From the IMG/VR virus record IMGVR_UViG_3300020060_000028, positions 1-21,457 of that record: a DNA stretch of 21,457 bases; one strand, given 5' to 3'. The stretch comes from a virus. Made by a program: the position numbers and the translations under genes. Position 1 is the first letter of the stretch; the number at the start of each line of letters is the position of its first letter. Below are positions 7,550 to 19,336 of this stretch, piece by piece. The notes beneath the pieces are model-generated. The model did no database searches, was not told the origin of the DNA, and was given only the letters and a program-made list of their open reading frames with translations.

Positions 7550-7926
7550 TAGAATTTCCAGTCCTGTTTCAGGATGCCGACGAGATAGCCGTCACGAGAC
7601 GGGCCGAAGTGATTGCGCAGAAGGCCTTCAACCTGGCCACCAAGCCGTTCCGCGATGCGGACGATGTGTGGCTGCTCGGTTACGGCTGTCATTCTGATGA
7701 CCTTCAGCGTGTCGAAAGCGTAGTGGCCGACATCGGCAAAGAAGCCCTTTGTCCACCCGTGGCCTGCCACCGTGACATGCACGTCCGTACGCTCGAAATG
7801 ATTGAATATGACGCCGGCTATGACCTCGCCGTTGCGCTCGATACCCATGCAGGTGAACGGCGGGACAATGACCGATCCGACCCGCTCGCCCACAAAGCGG
7901 GCCACGCGCTCGTCGGTTACGATCAC
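7549..7926 (-). CDS. GNAT-family acetyltransferase-like protein
   Basis: The 125-residue protein shows the compressed GNAT fold: strands at GIERNGEVIAGVIFNHFERT, a central segment with HVTVAG and FADVGHYAFDTL, and then the typical C-terminal block VTEQPHIVRIAERLGGQVEG followed by LLRNHFGPSRDGYLVGILKQ. The last block is the classic neighbour-residue, RLGF and EGxLR pattern of acetyl-CoA-dependent acetyltransferases. The substrate is unknown; host or virion proteins are possible. The start is GTG at 7926, overlapping the gp10-like stop in GTGA. The stop overlaps the next start in TAATG, so the gene is tightly built into the tail operon. Similar GNAT genes occur at this position in several short-tailed phages. 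The acetyl-CoA pyrophosphate loop (Q/R-x-x-G-x-G/A) is not obvious, so activity is less certain than fold. Confidence 0.75.
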   Translation of the reverse strand: MIVTDERVARFVGERVGSVIVPPFTCMGIERNGEVIAGVIFNHFERTDVHVTVAGHGWTKGFFADVGHYAFDTLKVIRMTAVTEQPHIVRIAERLGGQVEGLLRNHFGPSRDGYLVGILKQDWKF

Positions 7927-9611
7927 GTAATGATTTCCGCCGTTTGGTATGATGCCTCTATGCGGATCAGTTCATAATCAAGAGCGACGACGGAACCGGA
8001 GGTGATCTGAAACGCCGGGGAAAACGCATAACCGCTCCCTCCAACGGAAACCCATTCCTGGCGCGGCTTCATTTCCCTGGCCGCGCCCCAAACCGATGTT
8101 CCCCAGATGGCATTGCCCCACTCGCTGCCAACCGGGATCGGCGCGGCGTTCGGGGGAGATGGCAGGCTGACGAAATAATCAACCTGCATTGATACGGTGG
8201 TTTTGACACCGACAGGAGCAAGCCCGACCACCCTGGCCAGCCCTGCTATCTTCAGCGATGCAGGAGACCCCAGATCGTCGAACAGCGGAACACAAACGCC
8301 CGTATAGATTTCGCCCTGATCAAGGCCGGAAACGTTCGCTTCAACCACCTTGCCATCCTCGGAGCCGAAGAACAGGCGCTCCTTGAACACCAGGAGGCAA
8401 CGGCCATCCCAATTCAGGCGCCGGCACCATGCGCCTGTCCGCACATTGGCGAGGAACATGGCCGCCGGCTCTTCGCCTGCCGTGGGAAGCGCAATGACGG
8501 CCATCTGCTTCGACGGCCAGACTTCGCAATGCCAGTTCGATCCCCGCCGATCGACCGCCTCGTTCCATGCCACCTCGATTGGGTAGGAAACGGCGGTAGG
8601 ACCGAGCGCTGCCAATTCACGGTTGATCGCTTCACTGAGCCGCACATAGCCAATGGATGTAGCGATGATCAGATCCCCGCCGTCTCGTATCCATGCCTGC
8701 TTGCCGAGGGGCCGGCCTATGCGGTAGACGCCGACTTTATTCCAATCGTCGGCGCTGCTGGGGTTGGCTCCTTGGAAAACAGCAACTTCGCCTTCCGTCG
8801 TGACGAAGATGCACTGTTCGGAAAGACCGCCTTGCTCGCCGGCATCGGTGGACCATGAAGCACCGAACAGAATTGACCCACCAAGCCCGAAGACGCCACC
8901 GAGAGGCAGTTTTTTCAGTTCGCCGCCGATCACATCGACGGGGAGATACCACGCATTAAGACTGTTTTTCTGGAGGAAGAACAACCTTTGCTTGTAGGCC
9001 CACACATAGAACAGGATATCGGGCGTCAAGGCCGCGTCCGGTGCCGCAAAGGTCAGTGCCGGGGTTTCCTCGAATGTCACCCCGTCATAGACGAATGGCG
9101 TATCCTCTCCATTGACACCGCGAAGAAAAGTCCCACCTGCGGTCGCGAACTGAACCACGATCCAGTCACCGCCAACCGTGGCCTCAAGCACCTCCAGCCC
9201 GATGGTGGAGTCTTCCCCGAAGGTGTCGCCCGTATCGGTCTCAAGCGGTTCGTCGTCTTCCGTGGCGATTTCGTAGTTATAGGGAATGAGGATGGTCGTG
9301 ATGTCGTAGATTGCATCCTCGGTGGCGCCGAACATTTGCTCGACCGTGCCATTGATGTAGGCAAACAGCGAGAGTGTCGGTTTGTCGCCCTCCCCCAGGG
9401 TTGCATAGAGCTCCGATCCACGAAGCAGGCGAACGCCGGTCGCGGTCGGGAACATGTTGTCCAGCACCGCTGCACCCGAGACGTTGGTGCCGTCCGCGTT
9501 CTTGGCTTGCGGCTGCGCAAGATTGAGGTTTGACACCCATCCGTTTCGCGGGGCCGGGAATGCCGCCAGTTCGCTCGTGCGCGGCTTCTGGCGCTGCGTC
9601 GGTGTCCTCAT
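7923..9611 (-). CDS. gp10-like packaged-DNA stabilisation/tail hub protein
   Basis: The 562-residue protein is rich in beta strands and short turns. It has repeated aromatic/Gly motifs (FAYINGTVEQMFGAT, LFYVWAYKQRLFFLQKNSLN, WYLPVDVIGGELKKLPLGG, IFVTTEGEVAVFQGANPSS, LLVFKERLFFGSEDGKVVEA), as expected for a beta-propeller. A DNMFPTATGVRLLRGSE segment near residue 53 is typical of the P22 gp10 family, which plugs the portal channel with gp4 and gp26 and retains packaged DNA. P22 gp10 is about 470 residues, so this one is longer. It follows the gp4-like adaptor, as in P22, but a plus-strand HNH gene lies between them. The ATG at 9611 has no strong ribosome-binding site. It ends in the GTGA overlap with the acetyltransferase gene. 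Confidence 0.8.
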   Translation of the reverse strand: MRTPTQRQKPRTSELAAFPAPRNGWVSNLNLAQPQAKNADGTNVSGAAVLDNMFPTATGVRLLRGSELYATLGEGDKPTLSLFAYINGTVEQMFGATEDAIYDITTILIPYNYEIATEDDEPLETDTGDTFGEDSTIGLEVLEATVGGDWIVVQFATAGGTFLRGVNGEDTPFVYDGVTFEETPALTFAAPDAALTPDILFYVWAYKQRLFFLQKNSLNAWYLPVDVIGGELKKLPLGGVFGLGGSILFGASWSTDAGEQGGLSEQCIFVTTEGEVAVFQGANPSSADDWNKVGVYRIGRPLGKQAWIRDGGDLIIATSIGYVRLSEAINRELAALGPTAVSYPIEVAWNEAVDRRGSNWHCEVWPSKQMAVIALPTAGEEPAAMFLANVRTGAWCRRLNWDGRCLLVFKERLFFGSEDGKVVEANVSGLDQGEIYTGVCVPLFDDLGSPASLKIAGLARVVGLAPVGVKTTVSMQVDYFVSLPSPPNAAPIPVGSEWGNAIWGTSVWGAAREMKPRQEWVSVGGSGYAFSPAFQITSGSVVALDYELIRIEASYQTAEIIT

Positions 9612-9709: not shown

Positions 9710-10291
9710 ATGGCTCCCAAACCAATATGCTCGATTCCAGATTGCGGCAAGCCGGCATGCAACATGCGAGGCTGGTGCAATGCTCACTATCACCGCTGGC
9801 GCCTCCATGGCCACCCTCTGGGTGGAGGTACGAAGTTCGGAGAACCGGAAACTTTTTACCAAAAAACAGCCCTCCTTTTTGCTCGCGATGAATGTCTACT
9901 TTGGCCTTTCGGCCTGACTAAAAACGGATACCCACAGATTTGGCGGGACGGGAAGAAACTCTACGTCCATCGGCTAATCTGCGAGGCGATCAAGGGAGCA
10001 CCGCCCTCTAGTGACCACGAAGCCGCGCACTCTTGCGGCGTGAAGGCATGCGTCTCGTCGGCTCACCTTAGCTGGAAAACACACGTCGAAAACGAGGCCG
10101 ACAAGCTTTTGCATGGCACAAGATTGAGTGGAGCGAAGCACACATTGGCTCGGCTTACTGAAACCGATATCCGAACGATCCGAGACCTCGGCGGCAAAAA
10201 AGAACAGGCAGAGATTGCGGAGATTTACGGCGTCTCACAAAGCCACGTCAGTAGCATTCTTAGCGGGCGCCGATGGTCATCCTTATCCTAA
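9710..10291 (+). CDS. HNH-type homing endonuclease with zinc finger and C-terminal HTH
   Basis: A 193-residue protein starts with ATG at 9710 after AAGAGG (9699-9704). The N-terminus carries a Cys/His cluster (C7, C12, C23, H26 in CSIPDC, GWCNAHYHRW) likely to bind zinc. The HNH core covers about residues 75-130: YPQIWRDGKKLYVHRLICEA, then HEAAHSCGVKACVSSAHLSW and ENEADKLLHGTRLSG. Residues 145-187 form a helix-turn-helix (LTETDIRTIRDLGGKKEQAE, IAEIYGVSQSHVSSILSGRR) that probably supplies DNA specificity. It lies on the strand opposite to the late operon, exactly between the gp4-like and gp10-like genes. It overlaps the 3' end of the gp4-like gene by nine bases. This is typical of a free-standing homing gene; it has no virion function. 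It is not closely similar to the left HNH gene and was probably acquired separately. Confidence 0.88.
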   Translation: MAPKPICSIPDCGKPACNMRGWCNAHYHRWRLHGHPLGGGTKFGEPETFYQKTALLFARDECLLWPFGLTKNGYPQIWRDGKKLYVHRLICEAIKGAPPSSDHEAAHSCGVKACVSSAHLSWKTHVENEADKLLHGTRLSGAKHTLARLTETDIRTIRDLGGKKEQAEIAEIYGVSQSHVSSILSGRRWSSLS

Positions 10292-10984
10292 CTGCCATGG
10301 CCACCCGACACTAACATTTGGGTACCGGCGCCGGCCGTTTGACCTAATCACAACGGCGCCGCGATCCCTCGCTTGGGCTTGAGATAGAGCTATCTCGTAC
10401 GTTTCGAGATCCTCAGAAAACTCCAGCCGCTTCTGCGCCCTCCAGCGCCATATGAGGCCCAGGGTGAGCAGGCGTTCGTCAAGCGCGAAGGTATCGCTGT
10501 CGTTGTCAAAGGCGGCCTTGGGCGTGCCGCCCGGAGCGATAGCGAAATTCTTGGAGACATAGGGGAACTTGGCGGTTGCCCCGGACGCGGGGGCCGGCTG
10601 GAATTGGAACTGCCCCCCGGTGAGCAGCCACCATCCGGGAGAGACGACGCCCAGATAGAAGCCGTTCTGGATCATGATCCATGTGTCCATATCGGGCACC
10701 TGGGTATAGCCCCAGAACCAGCTATTGGCATCCGATACGCCCTGCCCGAGGCTCATGCGGTCATAGTCTTCCGGCAACGGAAAGGCTGTGTCCGTCCCGT
10801 TGCCGGCGATTGCGTTGATCTTGGTCAAAGCCTGCCAGTCATGCGACTTCATGATATCGACGCCGACCTCCGTCACGAGATCGGCAATCTCCACCACGGT
10901 CTGCTCCGACGACGAGAATACCGTTGCCGGCTTCGTGCCAATGAGGCGGATCAGGGCAGACTGGCAGGCTGACAGGCAGGTCAT
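10283..10984 (-). CDS. gp4-like head-to-tail adaptor/tail accessory protein
   Basis: The 233-residue protein has a helical front (residues 25-50, EQTVVEIADLVTEVGVDIMK followed by SHDWQALTK) that matches the fold opening of P22 gp4-type adaptors, which bind the bottom of the portal ring. The middle is beta-rich with many aromatics (SWFWGYTQVPDMDTWIMIQN). The C-terminus has a helical pair (LDERLLTLGLIWRWRAQKRL) and then a Pro/Trp-rich ending (VGWPWQLG), as is usual for this family. It starts one base after the stop of the 239-residue gene and precedes the gp10-like gene in operon order. Other head-tail connector families have the same general shape, so the precise type is inferred from the gp10-like partner. 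Confidence 0.75.
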   Translation of the reverse strand: MTCLSACQSALIRLIGTKPATVFSSSEQTVVEIADLVTEVGVDIMKSHDWQALTKINAIAGNGTDTAFPLPEDYDRMSLGQGVSDANSWFWGYTQVPDMDTWIMIQNGFYLGVVSPGWWLLTGGQFQFQPAPASGATAKFPYVSKNFAIAPGGTPKAAFDNDSDTFALDERLLTLGLIWRWRAQKRLEFSEDLETYEIALSQAQARDRGAVVIRSNGRRRYPNVSVGWPWQLG

Positions 10985-12170: not shown

Positions 12171-13181
12171 TTACGCGGTCTTGAGCCGGACTTGGCTCAA
12201 AGGATTCTCGACCACGAACTGACCGGACCAGACAATGCCCTGAGCCCATGCGTCCTGGTTGATCGGGCGAATGCCGTCACCGGGATGGAAGGGGACAAAA
12301 GCCTGGCCGGGGAACTCGTAGATGGACAGGTTGTCGGTGTTCAGGGCGAAGATGGTGTTGGTCGGCATGACGTTACCGATACCACCGGCCGCCACAACGT
12401 CCACCAGACCGGCTGGGGTCCAGACACCAAGGCTTTCGAAGCCAAGCTGCGTGGCGCGCTGGGTGGTGATGCGCTGGTGAGCGACCGTCGCGGCGGAGAT
12501 GGCTGAGTAGGCGTTCGCGTCCATGACCCAGAGATCCGGATACATGTTGTTGCGGGAGCGGGCCAACGCGACCTTTTCCATGATCGGGCGGGCCGTGGTC
12601 GAATCCCAAGCGGTGAAGCCTGAGACATCGCCAGCGGTGATGTCGTAGTACGTGGTGCGCCAGTTGGCGACCGTACCGCGATCGATGCCGCCATAGGTGC
12701 CCGAGTTGTAGACGATAGGCACGGCGCCGCCGAGACCGATCATCTGCCGCCCGCCTGCACCGGTTCCATCAGCGACGAGTGAGGCTTCCCACTCTTCCTT
12801 GATGGTCTTCTCGGCCGCCTTCAGGTAGAATTCCATCAGGTCGATCTGCTCTTCCTCGCCGCTCGTATAGAGCAGTTCGGTGCCGTTCAGCGAGAACATG
12901 GCGACGACACGGGACCAGTTGAAGACTGCGGAATTCAGCAGTTCCTTCGGGGTGATCTCGATCTTGTCGTAGCCAGTGAACCACTGGGCTGCAAGTTTGT
13001 CGAACTCGATGGGAATGCGAAGCTCAGGGCCGCCGGCACGCTTCACCTTGATGCGGCCGGAATCCTTGAGGATCTTGGTCAGCGGCGTGGACTTGTAAAC
13101 GATGTCCTGCACCGTCTTGGAACGCTTTGCCACGGCAGCGGTGAGCATCTGCCGATATTGGCGATCGGTTACGATAGGCAT
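12171..13181 (-). CDS. Major capsid protein
   Basis: The 336-residue protein has an N-terminal helix (MPIVTDRQYRQMLTAAVAKR). A beta-strand P-domain-like region follows (LRIPIEFDKLAAQWFTGYDK), then a long spine-like helix (about residues 125-160, EEEQIDLMEFYLKAAEKTIK). Next is an A-domain-like part with DLWVMDANAYSAISAATV and IGNVMPTNTIFALNTDNLSI. The C-terminal part has VPFHPGDGIRPINQDAWAQG and VVENPLSQVRLKTA. The order and length fit an HK97-fold capsid protein. The gene directly follows the scaffold and has a strong AAGGAG site seven bases before the ATG, as expected for the most abundant virion protein. No cleaved N-terminal delta domain is visible, consistent with a separate scaffold protein. 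Confidence 0.85.
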   Translation of the reverse strand: MPIVTDRQYRQMLTAAVAKRSKTVQDIVYKSTPLTKILKDSGRIKVKRAGGPELRIPIEFDKLAAQWFTGYDKIEITPKELLNSAVFNWSRVVAMFSLNGTELLYTSGEEEQIDLMEFYLKAAEKTIKEEWEASLVADGTGAGGRQMIGLGGAVPIVYNSGTYGGIDRGTVANWRTTYYDITAGDVSGFTAWDSTTARPIMEKVALARSRNNMYPDLWVMDANAYSAISAATVAHQRITTQRATQLGFESLGVWTPAGLVDVVAAGGIGNVMPTNTIFALNTDNLSIYEFPGQAFVPFHPGDGIRPINQDAWAQGIVWSGQFVVENPLSQVRLKTA

Positions 13182-13193
13182 TGGATTTCTCCT

Positions 13194-14435
13194 TTATGAA
13201 GCCAGCTTGCGCGCTTCGCGCTTGAGCAGCTTCCTGATGTCGGTTTCGTCGTCGCCCTCGTCGGGGTCTTGCCCGTTGGGAGCGCCACGGATGGATTTCG
13301 CGCCAGCATCGTCGGAAGGCACGGGTTTCGCGACAGCAAGGGCCTCATGAGCTTGAGAAGGCGCGACTGAAGAGGTCGGATTGATCCGAACAGCCATGTC
13401 GTACGCAGCTTCAAGCCGTTCCTGAGGAGACAGGGACGCGGGGATTTTTCCTGAGGTGAGGAAGAACGCGATGTCCCCCTCAAGCTCATGGTATCGCGGG
13501 TTCTTCTCCGCGAATGGGGCGATGATCGACTGCACCGTTTGTTCCTGGCGCATCGACTGGAGTTCCTGCTTGAGCGCCTGCACCTCGGGATCGGGCTGGC
13601 GCTGCTGCGTCTGCTGGCGGGGCTGGTTGACAGCCTGCTGATAGGCCTGCGGGTTCTGCGAAATGTGCTGAAGAACATCCATCAGGTTCAGATGCGAGCC
13701 GTCCGCCTTGCGCGGGCCGATCTCGCGCAGAATGCTCTCCAGCCCTGCGATGGGGTTCTGAGCCAAGGCCTTCTCGACCTCGACAACCTTGGCCAGGCTG
13801 TCCTTGAGCTGGCGCCCGTTGCTCTTGGCAATCTCGTCAAACTCACGGATGGGCTCGTAGCGCTCGCCGGCTTCGCGGTATTTCGAGACCTCGGCCTCAT
13901 GCTCCTGCGACATGCGGGCAATTTCGCCCTTCACGGCATGGGGAACGTTGGCCCAGACCTCCTTGGCGCGGGGCAAAAACCGGGCGGGCGGCTCGTGATT
14001 CCTGCCCTCAGACTGGCGCTTATCCGTTTCCGCCCGCTCGGTCGCGGCCTTTTCAGGCTCGCCCTTGTCAGCCTTGGCGTCAACGTCCGGCTCATCGCCA
14101 TCGGTCTTGGCCTTGGCGAATTTGCCGTCATCCGCGCGTGATTTGGCGGGCTTCTCGTCCTTTTCCTTCTCGTCTACCTTGGCCTTGGCGTCCTTCGCGG
14201 CATCCTCGCCCTTTGCCTTGACCTCTTTGGCTTCCTCGCTCCGGATGCGCTCCAGTTCGGCCTTGAGCGTGTCGCCAGCGGTTTCCGGCTTCGCATCGGG
14301 CTTCGGGGCATCAACGTTCGGTTCGGTGAGGCTGGGTTTACCGCCACCTGTGCCGAGAGGTGCGCCGCCCTGGTCAATGGACGTGGAAAGGGGAACGGTG
14401 CCCGCGATGGGCGCCGGCTGCATGTCGGTCGTCAT
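13194..14435 (-). CDS. Capsid scaffolding protein
   Basis: The 413-residue protein is highly charged. Residues about 55-150 are Lys/Asp/Glu/Ala-rich (ELERIRSEEAKEVKAKGEDA, KAKVDEKEKDEKPAKSRADD) and should be largely disordered or helical. Residues 150-230 are helical (RFLPRAKEVWANVPHAVKGE). Residues about 275-310 are Gln-rich coiled coil (QQTQQRQPDPEVQALKQELQ). The C-terminus is strongly basic (RKLLKREARKLAS), which fits a capsid-binding tail like that of P22 gp8. P22 scaffold is about 300 residues, so this is longer. It lies immediately upstream of the capsid gene, the standard place for scaffold. AAGGA precedes the ATG. No protease motif is visible, so it is not an obvious protease-scaffold fusion. 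Confidence 0.82.
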   Translation of the reverse strand: MTTDMQPAPIAGTVPLSTSIDQGGAPLGTGGGKPSLTEPNVDAPKPDAKPETAGDTLKAELERIRSEEAKEVKAKGEDAAKDAKAKVDEKEKDEKPAKSRADDGKFAKAKTDGDEPDVDAKADKGEPEKAATERAETDKRQSEGRNHEPPARFLPRAKEVWANVPHAVKGEIARMSQEHEAEVSKYREAGERYEPIREFDEIAKSNGRQLKDSLAKVVEVEKALAQNPIAGLESILREIGPRKADGSHLNLMDVLQHISQNPQAYQQAVNQPRQQTQQRQPDPEVQALKQELQSMRQEQTVQSIIAPFAEKNPRYHELEGDIAFFLTSGKIPASLSPQERLEAAYDMAVRINPTSSVAPSQAHEALAVAKPVPSDDAGAKSIRGAPNGQDPDEGDDETDIRKLLKREARKLAS

Positions 14436-14465: not shown

Positions 14466-14822
14466 TTACTGTATCGCCGCGATTTCAGGCGGCAGATTCC
14501 CTGAGAGAACATCCGCCATGGCCTGCTTGACGTCGTTGCGGCGCTCGACGGGATCGGCCACCGCTTCAACGGTCTTCACGGTCTCATTGCCGAGGGCGAC
14601 GTATTCCTCGCCCTTCGGGTTTCCACTGGCCTTGTAGGTGTTCTCAAGGTCGCGCGGGTTGCTGTACCATTTGCCATCGGCCATGCTCTGGACGGGCTCG
14701 GCAAACGGCCTCACGATCTGCGGGCAGGCGAGATGGGAACGCGGGCCGCGAGACATAGGAGCGACCTTGCGATAGACCTTGCGGCCATTGCCGAGGTCGA
14801 TCCACTCATGCGCGTCCATCAT
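14466..14822 (-). CDS. Small conserved phage protein of unknown function
   Basis: A 118-residue product is read from the first of two ATG codons at 14822. That start overlaps the preceding stop in TGATG, so coupling is likely; a longer frame begins at 14864 but lies inside the neighbour. The sequence opens MMDAHEWIDLGNGRKVYRKV and continues SHLACPQIVRPFAEPVQSMA, DGKWYSNPRDLENTYKASGN and YVALGNETVKTVEAVAD. This pattern of an N-terminal beta patch, an RS-L-CP segment and a DGK-Y-S segment recurs in small proteins encoded upstream of scaffold genes in short-tailed phages; their function is not known to me. No enzyme motif is seen, and the single Cys does not suggest a zinc site. Confidence 0.66.
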   Translation of the reverse strand: MMDAHEWIDLGNGRKVYRKVAPMSRGPRSHLACPQIVRPFAEPVQSMADGKWYSNPRDLENTYKASGNPKGEEYVALGNETVKTVEAVADPVERRNDVKQAMADVLSGNLPPEIAAIQ

Positions 14823-15241
14823 CACGCATCCGGCACCGGGTTGGCCCAGGTGTTCAGGCGCCATCCGGTTGCGGTGACCGCAATAGCCTGGAATGAACTG
14901 TTGGCAGCAAGCGCCGCCTCGTTGGGGCCAGCAACGCCGTTGATGGTGTTGGTGCCGGTTGGGCGGATTTCACAGCCAGTCGCCAGCACCGCACCATAGA
15001 TCGTCAGGCCAATGAGTGATGCACTGAGTGGAGGAAGCGTGACGATGTTGTTGGCATCCGCCGAAGTGACCAGCACCATGCCATCGGTCGGCAGGAGAAG
15101 GCCTGTCGTCAAGCCGTTTGCCGTTGCAGTCACGGCGCGTTCAACGGTGCTGGTCGGCTTGGCGGTGTCGATCTGCTTCGCCAATTCCGAGGCGAGAGGC
15201 GGGACCATGCTCAGTTCTACAAGTCGGCTCGTGTTTGCCAT
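14822..15241 (-). CDS. Small beta-rich protein, possibly virion-associated
   Basis: The 139-residue protein is rich in Thr, Ala, Asn and Val: VERAVTATANGLTTGLLLPT, GMVLVTSADANNIVTLPPLS, AVLATGCEIRPTGTNTINGV, FQAIAVTATGWRLNTW. The repeated short strands suggest a beta-sandwich or trimeric beta structure. It has no catalytic motif. AAGGAAAA lies just upstream of the ATG at 15241, and the gene begins 25 bases after the SGNH hydrolase stop. Its location after that hydrolase suggests a structural or decoration partner, but the assignment is only contextual. Confidence 0.62.
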   Translation of the reverse strand: MANTSRLVELSMVPPLASELAKQIDTAKPTSTVERAVTATANGLTTGLLLPTDGMVLVTSADANNIVTLPPLSASLIGLTIYGAVLATGCEIRPTGTNTINGVAGPNEAALAANSSFQAIAVTATGWRLNTWANPVPDA

Positions 15242-15266: not shown

Positions 15267-16862
15267 TTAGCTTGCCAGCGCGGTGCTGATTGCCGCCGCA
15301 CAGATGGGAGACGCGTATTGCTCATATGCCACTGCCGATAGATGCGTTCCGTCCGGGTAAAGCGCTGTGTTGGCAGTCGTGGCGACGAGGCCAAGAACCG
15401 GGTCGGCCGCGTAATCAGCGACCGTGTAGCCGTTGATTGAAGCGTTGGCGCGGATCTGTGTGTTGAGGTCTTGCCGGTCCAAATCCTTTGCAGAACCGGC
15501 CGCACCGAAGCCGGTACGCGGCAAGCATGTACCCACAACGATACGCACGCTCGCGCCAAGCGCCTTCTGAGCCGCAACCCACGTCTGGATGTTCGCCATG
15601 ACGGCTGCGGCAACGCCCGTCCCGGCAATGATGTCGTTCGTCCCCGCCCAAAGATGAAACATGTTCTTGCCGGTGATCGAGCCGCTGTACAGCGTAGCCT
15701 CATGCGCGGCGCGCTGTGTCACAGTCGTCGCCATCGTGATGCCGGCAATGCCGAGGTTCCACACGGCTTTGTTCGATGCCGATACCAGGGCAGACGCGAG
15801 GCGCGGAAGGGTTTTGCAGTCGTCGGTGTAAACACCCTCGGTGATGCTATCGCCGACAAACACGAGGTTGTTGTCAAACGTGGTCGGAATGCCGAACGCG
15901 GCAATCGCCGCCGTGCGGGCATCGGTTATCTGAGTATCGTTAAGCTGCGTCGGATAGATGGCGAACAGGGTGTAGTCCTGCCTTGCTGCCTTGTTCCAAG
16001 CACTCGCAACGGATGAGAACCCGAGATAGCCGCCAGCGATAGCCAGTGTCACCGGAGCCGTGATCGTGCTTTTCGCACCAGTCGTCCGATATATGCCGGA
16101 CCCGGCTGCCCCGGTGCCCAAGCCGTAGAACTCCAGAACGTCCTTTGCGGCAGGCGTCTTGTCGTTCACTGCGGCTGGATACCACCGGATCGACATGAGA
16201 TTGCTCGATGACAAAATGAGCGCATCGGATTGCGCGTTGTTCGGGAACTCATACGGCGTCATGCCTTGGATGGAGACAGATGAGGCAAAGACCATGATCT
16301 TTGTGTTTCCGAGCCGGTCAAACGCAACTCCAGCCGGAATGTTGAAATATCGAGGGATGGCATTGGGCGCGGTGTTGTCCGCCCTTCGCGTGCCGGCGAC
16401 GATTGCGTTTCGATCAGCCAGCAAGCGCGGCATGTTTGCTAGCGTCGTCTGCGTGGCGTGGTTGCCGTTGCCGCTCTGGTCATACCATGTCTTGACCATG
16501 ATGATGTCGGACGGCGAGGCCTTGAAGGCCATGGCCGTGGTGATATCTATCTGCCGGCTGATCGTGCGGTAACCGATGTCCATTTCGGCGCTGTCAGATG
16601 CGCGCACGATGCGGCAGCAAGCAAGAGCCGAGCCGGTGACCGCATTGGTCGAATAGATCGCGCCACCAGATCCTGTCGCGGGCAAGACCAGATTGACGCC
16701 GGGGGTCTCCTGGGTGATCCCGACGACAGGAAGCGCATTGGCCGCGAACGTCACAGGTATACCATAGCCATTGGTCGCCAGCGTCATGGGCGTTCCCCGC
16801 CCATTGGCTGCCACGGTGACCGGAAGGCCGCCAGATGGCTTGATGACGACAGGCCACGCCAT
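15267..16862 (-). CDS. SGNH/GDSL hydrolase with N-terminal repeats and jelly-roll-like domain
   Basis: The 531-residue protein has three visible parts. Residues 11-46 hold three imperfect repeats of about 12 residues (GLPVTVAANGRG, TPMTLATNGYG, IPVTFAANALPV). Residues about 55-325 look like a beta jelly roll of the laminin-G/arabinofuranosidase-B type, with TWYDQSGNGNHATQ at 125-138. Residues 333-531 form an SGNH esterase domain. It has GDSIT at 337-341 with nucleophile S339, block II Gly at 371-374 (GIAG), GTND at 407-410 with N409, and DGTH at 504-507 with the D504/H507 pair. All four blocks are intact, so activity as an esterase or deacetylase on a surface polysaccharide is likely; the substrate is unknown. 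The start overlaps the portal stop in TAATG. Its place within the head genes is unusual for a receptor-acting enzyme. Confidence 0.85.
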   Translation of the reverse strand: MAWPVVIKPSGGLPVTVAANGRGTPMTLATNGYGIPVTFAANALPVVGITQETPGVNLVLPATGSGGAIYSTNAVTGSALACCRIVRASDSAEMDIGYRTISRQIDITTAMAFKASPSDIIMVKTWYDQSGNGNHATQTTLANMPRLLADRNAIVAGTRRADNTAPNAIPRYFNIPAGVAFDRLGNTKIMVFASSVSIQGMTPYEFPNNAQSDALILSSSNLMSIRWYPAAVNDKTPAAKDVLEFYGLGTGAAGSGIYRTTGAKSTITAPVTLAIAGGYLGFSSVASAWNKAARQDYTLFAIYPTQLNDTQITDARTAAIAAFGIPTTFDNNLVFVGDSITEGVYTDDCKTLPRLASALVSASNKAVWNLGIAGITMATTVTQRAAHEATLYSGSITGKNMFHLWAGTNDIIAGTGVAAAVMANIQTWVAAQKALGASVRIVVGTCLPRTGFGAAGSAKDLDRQDLNTQIRANASINGYTVADYAADPVLGLVATTANTALYPDGTHLSAVAYEQYASPICAAAISTALAS

Positions 16863-19336
16863 TAGGCCTGCTCCTTTGCTGCCGTGCGCTCTGCAAGCGT
16901 CCGTTGGCGATCGGTATCCGTCTCAGTGAAGTGCTGCTGACGATCGGCCCGCCCTTCCTGCCGCTCGCCTAGCTGTTCCGTGTGCTGCTGCTGACGTTCG
17001 TTCAACTGCGCGTTGCGGTCGCCTTCGACCGCCTTCTGCTGCATGCCCTGTGCAGCCATAGCTTGGTCCACCTGCTGCGTCTGGACAGCCTGTTCCGCCG
17101 AATACTCGGAAAGCTTCTGCTTGCGCTCATCAAGGCCGATCGATGCAAGGATCTTGGCCGTGTCGGCTGTCAGCTTGTTGATCTCTGCCTGAAGCTTGCC
17201 GGACTTCGACTGCATGTCAGCCACCTGGAGTTGCAGCTTGGCGTTCTCCTGTTCGGCCTTCGTCTTGTCGGCCTGCGCCTTGATCTGGAGCTCGGCAATC
17301 TTGCGTTCGTTATCGGCCTGCGCCTGCTGGCCTTTTGCCTGCGCCGACATCAGAGAGGCCTGAGCCTTCACGCCCTCAGCCTCGGCCAGCTTGTTGTTGG
17401 CATCTGCCATGGCCTTTTCGGCATCGCCATTGCCCTGCCCCTGGCCGGCGATCTGTGCTGCCATTTGCGGAGCGGCATCAACGAAGTCATCAATGAGGCC
17501 ATTCAGCTCACGGCCAACACGATAAGGTGCCGTGACGAACTTGAGGAAGCCACCGGCCAGAGCCGCACCGGATTCGCCCATGGCAGCAAGCCCGGTAAGC
17601 GCCTGTGTGGACTGCGCCACCACGCCGAGGAATTCATTGCGAGACTGTTTCTCCTGCATCTCATCGGTCATGATGGTGGAATCGGTGGCAATCTCGAAGG
17701 CAAAGCCGCGCGTCTTGTCGTCGCGCAGAAGCTCAATCACATCTTCGATCGGGACGGTTTCCTCCGCCTGCTTGAGCGGGCCTGAGTACTTCTGCACAAT
17801 CGCCTGTTGCGCCTGCTGGAACTGCTGCTGAGCCTGCTGTGGGTCGATCTGTTGAGGCTGTCCGGGTTGAGGCTGTTGCTGCTTCTGCATGGCCTGCTGA
17901 GCCATTTCCTTGGCTTTCTCGCCAAGCTCCGTCAGTTCCTTTTTGGCGGCGGCCTCGATCTCCTTGACCGTCTTGGAAATCTCGGCTTTCGTCGGGATCT
18001 CCAACTGCGCCATGTCGAGCAACGTCTCTTTCGAGAACTTGTCAGACGCTATCTCGGCCACGATGCGCGCCACATCCCTGGCCACACGCTGCAATTCATC
18101 GATCTTGTCGCGCACACGAACCGAACCATACTGGCTCTTGAGCTGCTGAGCGCCCAATGTCTCTTCAGCCTCAGTGGCACCGCGCATAATGTCGGATATG
18201 CCGGAAAGCTGATAGAAATCCTCGATCAACTGGCCGCGCGCTTCGATCAGGCCTTGAATAGCCGTGGCAATGTCGGCCAGCGGCATCCACGTGACGAAAC
18301 CAGTTGCCGAACCTGAGACGAGCGCCGCCCCAGGCACCGAGATAATGATCTCGTCATCATCCGAGCGTAGCGCTGCCTGGATTGCGTCTCCAATGTCGCC
18401 ACCGGCCGGCACAAGGCCCTTCAGCTTGATCTTGTCCAGCAACAGGTAAATGCGGCTGGTGAGCGTGCTGATCTTGGCCAGATGCGCTGCATAGCGCGTG
18501 TAATCAGGCACCGGAACAAGAGAACGCCTGCGCAGCGTGCCATAGGCGGGCCGTGGACAGGGGAAGAAGTCCTTGAGCGTCAGATGGGGCTTGCCCTCAT
18601 CCAGCATCACAGGACAGTCAGGAGCGGCCCAATACACCTTGTTGTCGTTGCGGTGCCAGACTTCCCAGACGCCAGCTTTCTTGCTGTCGTCGGCGCCGCC
18701 ATTGTCCTTGTCATCACGGCGGATTTCAGTCTTTGCCTGCTGATAGGCCTTGCCGCTGGTTTTGGCGAAGCGCTTGCGCATCTCCGCCTTGGTCATCCAT
18801 GCCCTGCGAGCTACCCATCCGACATCAACCCACGCTCTGGCTGGCTCGTGAAGGAAGTCCGTCCGGTCAACCTGATCGACGCAGGCGCGCTGCTCGCCGT
18901 CCTCGCTCTCATATGTGACCCACAAGACACCGCGATTGGTAAATGCCAGATCGTCCCTGAGCGAAAGCATGGCCTGATCGATGTTGGTGCGGTCAAAGGC
19001 CGAGGTGACGACACGCTCAAGCAATTCCGCGGTGGTGTTGTAGAGCGGCCGACGATCGGCAAACATCGGAGCGACGGCTGGAACCGGAGCATGGGCATAG
19101 ATCGCCGGCTTGAGGATCTCCATGCTGGCCCAGAACAGATCGTATTCGGGATCGAGCCAATCGTTGTCATAGTTGTTGTCACGGCTGTAGATGTCGTCAA
19201 TGCGCCGGCATGTGTCCTGATAGTCGCGGAACGTGTCCGTCGCCTTCTTGATGGCAGACAGCACGCGAGATGAGGACTTGGCTTCGCCCTCAACCTCCAG
19301 GCTATCGCTGTATTCGGATTCTTCGACTTCAGCCAC
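16862..19336 (-). CDS. Portal protein (P22-type, with long coiled-coil C-terminus)
   Basis: An 824-residue portal forms the dodecameric DNA gate at one capsid vertex. The N-terminal half resembles large portal proteins of short-tailed phages: YDNDWLDPEYDLFWASMEIL, VTSAFDRTNIDQAMLSLRDD, WVTYESEDG, VWHRNDNKVYW, and a stem/wing region with IEDFYQLSGISDIMRGATEA followed by EETLGAQQLKSQYGSVRVRD. A Gln/Pro-rich linker follows (KQQQPQPGQPQQIDPQQAQQ). The last 180 or so residues form a highly charged helical barrel-like segment (AKGQQAQADNERKIAELQIK). The start is GTG at 19336, eight bases inside the preceding 62-residue gene. At 824 residues it is longer than P22 gp1 (about 725). The long C-terminal coiled coil could extend into the capsid as a barrel, as in P22. 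Confidence 0.87.
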   Translation of the reverse strand: MAEVEESEYSDSLEVEGEAKSSSRVLSAIKKATDTFRDYQDTCRRIDDIYSRDNNYDNDWLDPEYDLFWASMEILKPAIYAHAPVPAVAPMFADRRPLYNTTAELLERVVTSAFDRTNIDQAMLSLRDDLAFTNRGVLWVTYESEDGEQRACVDQVDRTDFLHEPARAWVDVGWVARRAWMTKAEMRKRFAKTSGKAYQQAKTEIRRDDKDNGGADDSKKAGVWEVWHRNDNKVYWAAPDCPVMLDEGKPHLTLKDFFPCPRPAYGTLRRRSLVPVPDYTRYAAHLAKISTLTSRIYLLLDKIKLKGLVPAGGDIGDAIQAALRSDDDEIIISVPGAALVSGSATGFVTWMPLADIATAIQGLIEARGQLIEDFYQLSGISDIMRGATEAEETLGAQQLKSQYGSVRVRDKIDELQRVARDVARIVAEIASDKFSKETLLDMAQLEIPTKAEISKTVKEIEAAAKKELTELGEKAKEMAQQAMQKQQQPQPGQPQQIDPQQAQQQFQQAQQAIVQKYSGPLKQAEETVPIEDVIELLRDDKTRGFAFEIATDSTIMTDEMQEKQSRNEFLGVVAQSTQALTGLAAMGESGAALAGGFLKFVTAPYRVGRELNGLIDDFVDAAPQMAAQIAGQGQGNGDAEKAMADANNKLAEAEGVKAQASLMSAQAKGQQAQADNERKIAELQIKAQADKTKAEQENAKLQLQVADMQSKSGKLQAEINKLTADTAKILASIGLDERKQKLSEYSAEQAVQTQQVDQAMAAQGMQQKAVEGDRNAQLNERQQQHTEQLGERQEGRADRQQHFTETDTDRQRTLAERTAAKEQA

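Follow-up and report, generated by a model that had tools for sequence, protein, structure and literature searches.

A predicted SGNH esterase on a repeat anchor, encoded in a variable slot between portal and scaffold genes of a phage lineage

Gene order and the SGNH gene

The window analysed here is the entire virus record IMGVR_UViG_3300020060_000028, a stretch of 21,457 bases. Its minus strand carries, in order, a small gene at the terminase-small-subunit position, the large terminase, the portal, the SGNH gene, g140, g133, a scaffold-position protein, the major head protein and the tail genes. No RNA families or tRNAs were found in the window. The features of the head region are as follows.

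16862..19336, minus strand: portal (phrog_12082, E = 9e-210)
15267..16862, minus strand: whole SGNH gene, 531 aa, comprising anchor, GH54/LamG-like domain and SGNH hydrolase domain (ORF call, Pfam)
16713..16862, minus strand: five-unit N-terminal anchor, residues 1-50 (repeat-family profile; alignment of 38 anchors)
15873..16697, minus strand: lectin-like or GH54-AbfB-like domain, residues 56-330 (PF09206, E = 2.3e-4, below cut-off; PDB profile search)
15270..15872, minus strand: SGNH hydrolase domain, residues 331-531 (PF13472, E = 1.2e-14)
15840..15854, minus strand: SGNH block I, GDSIT, residues 337-341, nucleophile Ser339
15741..15752, minus strand: SGNH block II, GIAG, residues 371-374, Gly374
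15633..15644, minus strand: SGNH block III, GTND, residues 407-410, Asn409
15342..15353, minus strand: SGNH block V, DGTH, residues 504-507, Asp504 and His507
14822..15241, minus strand: g140, second slot gene, helix-anchor family (RLVELSMVPPLASELAKQI), C-terminal part variable (helix-anchor profile, E = 3e-13, the window sequence being one of its twelve members)
14466..14864, minus strand: g133, conserved, closing the slot (phrog_21669)
13194..14435, minus strand: scaffold-position virion structural protein (phrog_25516)
12171..13181, minus strand: major head protein (phrog_9953)

The SGNH open reading frame starts with ATG and runs from 16862 to 15267 on the minus strand. Where it joins the portal gene, the coding strand reads GGCCTAATGGCG; TAATG here holds both the stop codon of the portal (TAA) and the start codon of the SGNH gene (ATG) in overlap, so that the coupling to the portal noted in a preliminary description of this DNA is borne out. 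The same description placed the gene between portal and scaffold genes; the neighbouring genes agree with this (portal phrog_12082, scaffold-position protein phrog_25516 and, beyond it, major head protein phrog_9953), but g140 and g133 also lie in this interval.

The SGNH domain scores above the Pfam cut-offs of both Lipase_GDSL_2 (PF13472; 55.6 bits against 32.9) and Lipase_GDSL (PF00657; E = 5.4e-9, 36.9 bits against 23.6), and the four blocks described earlier as intact, GDSIT, GIAG, GTND and DGTH, are all present. In a payload alignment of the window protein with three relatives, S339, G374, N409, D504 and H507 are invariant; a joint alignment with loci L220 and L122 was dropped, as the SGNH parts were misaligned. 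The dN/dS of the gene against the three relatives is 0.05-0.11, which indicates purifying selection, the ratios being rough because synonymous sites are near saturation. The PDB relatives of the domain (4ppy, 4iyj and 4hf7) are putative GDSL acylhydrolases. The sequence thus places the domain in the SGNH superfamily with its blocks intact, and an esterase role is predicted from it. An AlphaFold model of the whole protein, made with four close sequences, has a pLDDT of 29 and is too poor for a flavodoxin-like fold or the triad geometry to be read from it. A search of the family of genome G001 (298 genomes) gave an SGNH relative in G001 itself only.

The region between anchor and SGNH domain is less well defined. 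Its match to PF09206 (GH54) reaches 20.8 bits against a cut-off of 25 and extends across 60 residues only. The PDB profile search matched AbfB (1wd3, E = 5e-12), a GH54 alpha-L-arabinofuranosidase B, over no more than the first ~70 residues of the AbfB catalytic domain (AbfB residues 15-87), and the later region was unaligned. The catalytic residues of AbfB, Glu221 and Asp297, both lie well downstream of the matched stretch. Because the AbfB match stops after the first ~70 residues, glycosidase activity is not indicated. Membership in GH54 was rejected, the 60-residue match being below the cut-off and no match above the cut-off covering the catalytic domain. A model of this region alone, from 15 sequences, is of low confidence (pLDDT 41). 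The jelly-roll-like domain of the preliminary description has indirect support in its likeness by sequence to AbfB, but the fold is unconfirmed, since both models are poor (pLDDT 29 and 41).

Elsewhere in the window, a tail-collar domain gene at 1476-637 belongs to a separate tail-collar/fibre module. The gene at 7923-9611 (minus strand) bears the PHROG label amidase (phrog_5107, E = 3e-141); since it comes next to the tail gene at 10283-10984 and after it, a structural protein of the tail seems likelier, and the label may be wrong. These two genes are separated by a stretch of ~670 bp, occupied by an opposite-strand ORF of 193 aa (9710-10291, plus strand) that by eye resembles an HNH endonuclease; their homologues adjoin each other in relatives such as L009.

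The N-terminal anchor

The first 50 residues consist of five GxPVT-type units of about 9-12 residues each, roughly WPVVIKPSGG, LPVTVAANGRG, TPMTLATNGYG, IPVTFAANA and LPVVG, of which the first and last were placed through alignment and by eye. The three 12-residue repeats reported earlier are the clearest part of this series. The repeat-family profile matches the window anchor with E = 3.6e-16; the repeat profile was made from nine hand-picked sequences and the helix profile from twelve, both including the window, and their E-values are consequently not independent. The anchor was also considered as a tandem DNA repeat, which was rejected because a DNA repeat search gave no repeat family there.

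The anchor family occurs in 44 of the 77 slots compared (76 related loci and the window). Of these 44, 35 are genes of 49-74 aa and two measure 84-85 aa; the other seven, the window gene among them, are fusions with lengths of 167-652 aa. An eighth fusion is found in L026, the contig of which stops short of g133. For the most part the anchor is thus a stand-alone gene of about 50-60 residues, made of the units only and beginning not more than about 50 nt from where the portal gene ends. The repeats had been proposed as the part that attaches the enzyme to the virion. In dozens of relatives they recur at this position, either as stand-alone genes or N-terminal to different payloads, which supports the prediction that they are a likely virion-attachment element. 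The anchor has no resemblance to any protein of known location.

In the alignment of 38 main-type anchors (L026 and the cultured phage Mwe-JY13 included), five units can be read in every one, at a mean pairwise identity of 45% (minimum 22%), and forms with four or six units are absent. By a strict motif count the maximum is likewise five, with five units in 19 of 45 anchors and three in the window. The constancy of the number, being counted among homologues, may reflect descent. A three-unit subtype (eight cases) is at odds with a simple five-fold rule. In about 14 slots lacking a multi-unit anchor, the first protein has a single GGAPVT-like unit, mostly followed by a beta-rich-looking stretch.

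A first repeat scan, with a hand-made hybrid query, returned only loci already known or similar ones. A tblastn search of 50,697 phage records with a short repeat query gave no match; the method is too weak for this anchor, which is readable by eye in Mwe-JY13 in spite of that result.

The portal-scaffold slot and its payloads

The slot, measured between the end of the portal gene and g133 (or, in loci where no g133 was detected, the scaffold gene), varies from 189 to 4,989 bp in the 76 related loci. The loci, many of them metagenomic contigs, were found in searches seeded with the window portal and major head protein; near-duplicates were removed by identity over only the 160 bases around the portal end, and ORFs were assigned with a simple rule that takes the longest one. 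The helix-like anchor family (RLxELxMVPPLAKEVAxQI) is found in 66 of the 77 slots, and in each of the 39 relatives that have both families the helix-anchor gene is the downstream one of the two. The related phages Mx8, BUCT555 and ctMlz233 carry no more than one or two small genes at the slot position, which marks the slot genes as accessories.

The payloads recognised, on one or other anchor or otherwise within the slot, differ widely. They include an SGNH protein in L122 (Pfam E = 4e-4, below the cut-off; phrog_8480, E = 2e-43), a SASA carbohydrate esterase in L110 (above the cut-off), a GH26 domain in L101 (above the cut-off, on a short start of two to three units), a LamG domain fused to the repeat anchor in L026, and collagen sequences in L016 and L093, while many match nothing. 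In Mwe-JY13 (protein XAI95110.1), a five-unit-like anchor at the same position is fused to a lectin-like payload, which from residue 53 onward is present in 115 phage records. Judged from these contents, the gap between portal and scaffold genes is a hypervariable exchange slot for putative glycan-binding and glycan-cutting domains. That an esterase should be embedded in the head module had seemed odd in the preliminary description; the location stands, but the oddity becomes an instance of a general cargo slot in this lineage. The lineage is a little-known group, and no description of the slot or the anchor was found in the open-access literature; novelty is thus not proven.

Some further slot proteins may be mentioned. 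The slot of L163 has, as a separate gene beside the anchor gene (L163:4163-5281), a protein that matches the Mtd (major tropism determinant) second domain (PF21916, E = 6e-24); Mtd is a tail-fibre receptor-binding protein of phage BPP-1. A reverse transcriptase, as would accompany this Mtd-like payload in a diversity-generating element, was found on none of the 14 contigs searched, that of L163 included. Three slot proteins open with three helix-anchor units (L127:9832-12960, 1042 aa; L110:9537-12050, 837 aa; L122:6448-7803, 451 aa). The lectin-like payload of the Mwe-JY13 slot protein also forms the C-terminal end of gp203 of Sinorhizobium phage phiM12 (L225; NC_027204.1, 160054-162381), which is annotated with a partial GDSL-lipase domain.

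An exchanged cassette

Over the stretch that begins at about residue 46-58 and runs to the C-terminus, the window protein shares 78-89% identity with proteins encoded by Mesorhizobium genomes and by other virus records. At the DNA level the region is a mosaic: the portal resembles L005, L006, L015 and L112, the segment from codon ~52 to the stop resembles L033, L034, L004 and L003 (75-79%), and the start of g140 again resembles L006 and L112. L034 is the same locus as L002. By tblastn over 17 kb, L002-L004 share no other gene with the window. By these DNA resemblances, the lectin-like and SGNH part is a swapped cassette, delimited by codon ~52 on one side and the stop codon on the other. Its acquisition would best be explained by recombination with a pool common to rhizobial (pro)phages and unrelated phages of soil bacteria.

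The cassette follows an HK97-type major capsid gene in L002, L004 and L033 (in L033 as judged by similar gene order and length). In L003 the cassette comes after a large helicase/primase-like gene and outside a head module, which leaves three of the four loci with the cassette inside the head module. Directly upstream of the cassette in L002, L003, L033 and the more distant L220 lies a gene of 90-102 aa; the small gene preceding the L002 cassette gave no PDB match. In L004 (7914-9460) the SGNH gene is frameshifted early in its lectin-like part.

A proposed displayed glycan esterase and its alternatives

The reading that we hold to be reasonably probable is that the gene product is a virion-displayed glycan O-acylesterase, probably an O-deacetylase, on an anchor with an exchangeable payload, and located on the capsid rather than the tail. 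Residues 1-50, the lineage's own anchor, would hold the protein on the particle; the domain at residues 56-330 would probably bind polysaccharide, and the SGNH domain would strip acyl groups off host surface polysaccharide and in this way aid adhesion or receptor access; the slot would provide the anchor gene either alone or fused to an exchangeable payload. The esterase of the preliminary description is kept as a prediction, and it is probably part of the particle. Three points favour the capsid as the more likely site: in unrelated prophages the cassette stands behind capsid genes, the window has separate genes of tail-fibre type, and the number of units agrees with a five-fold vertex.

The protein may instead be a fibre or spike subunit at the tail or portal vertex, the gene lying merely by position in the head cluster and the anchor binding tail or connector. 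We consider this unlikely, though it has support in the Mtd-like protein of the L163 slot, in the match of the collagen-like payloads to tail-fibre families, and in the known phage SGNH deacetylases, which are tail fibres (PMC9569702). Against it are the same cassette behind capsid genes in unrelated prophages, the window's own tail-collar/fibre module (1476-637), and the number of five units, which does not suit a tail with a symmetry of three, six or twelve. A moron or lysogenic-conversion enzyme that acts in the cell rather than in the virion, altering host surface glycans and, for example, blocking superinfection, would agree with a mobile cassette that in L003 stands behind a helicase/primase-like gene and not behind head genes. 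It is rendered improbable by the translational coupling to the portal within the late structural cluster, by an N-terminus that it has in common with stand-alone slot genes lacking any enzyme domain, and by a sequence in which no signal peptide is evident by eye. Least probable of all, and hardly to be expected, is that the SGNH domain is catalytically dead and serves only as the binding module of an adhesin; binding domains do occur on the same anchor elsewhere (LamG in L026, lectin-like in Mwe-JY13), but the catalytic positions are all invariant among the aligned relatives and purifying selection is strong.

Comparison with known systems

Glycan-active enzymes are normally regarded as parts of the tail, head-mounted glycan binders are known from the gene transfer agent RcGTA, and head fibres are known from a few phages. 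The RcGTA head spike consists of the fibre Rcc01080 and the base protein Rcc01079 (PMC7296036). Each vertex bears a single fibre, which is fixed to five base proteins through five hydrophobic residues and is responsible for binding to the capsule (PMC7296036, PMC10218006). The likeness to the displayed esterase would lie in a flexible carbohydrate-binding fibre with a short N-terminal anchor bearing five repeated hydrophobic residues, a functional analogy only, as no homology was found and none is claimed. The RcGTA period is two residues, against 9-12 in the window anchor, and the unit sequence also differs; RcGTA moreover has a base protein that forms a pentamer, and the text consulted mentions no esterase (PMC7296036). 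No jelly-roll base protein was recognised between portal and SGNH genes in the window, where the two overlap in TAATG.

By this analogy, an anchor of exactly five units may be matched in symmetry to the five-fold vertices at which it would attach. Somewhat speculatively, the five tandem units of one polypeptide may fill the five equivalent sites of a vertex, giving one exchangeable enzyme or lectin per vertex and making the gap a dedicated slot; relatives that have a single unit and a beta-rich domain of their own could occupy these sites as pentamers.

With the SGNH/GDSL hydrolases (PF13472) the window protein shares all four blocks, and it differs in the preceding GH54-like domain and the phage anchor. 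G7C gp63.1 and Possum gp66 likewise contain an SGNH domain that is proposed or shown to deacetylate host surface polysaccharide, that of the Possum fibre acting on host O-polysaccharide (PMC9569702). Both are tail fibres, whereas the window gene lies in the head cluster, between the portal and scaffold-position genes, and has a different anchor.

If true, a conserved anchor with exchangeable payloads would allow the lineage to alter its surface chemistry with the tail genes untouched, and the anchor could serve as a natural display handle of one copy per vertex. The cultured phage Mwe-JY13, having the same anchor type, makes the idea directly testable.

Related portal and major head proteins in the same order as in the window are found in the podovirus head cluster of Mx8 type, in the Myxococcus phage Mx8 and the Rhizobium phage RHph_I3_18. 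Mx8 has a single gene of 109 aa between portal and scaffold-position gene, with no anchor genes and no payload. Two different head modules of the present lineage lie roughly 40 kb apart on one contig in IMGVR_UViG_3300025759_000075 (L019 and L023) and likewise in IMGVR_UViG_3300025889_000002 (L020 and L032).
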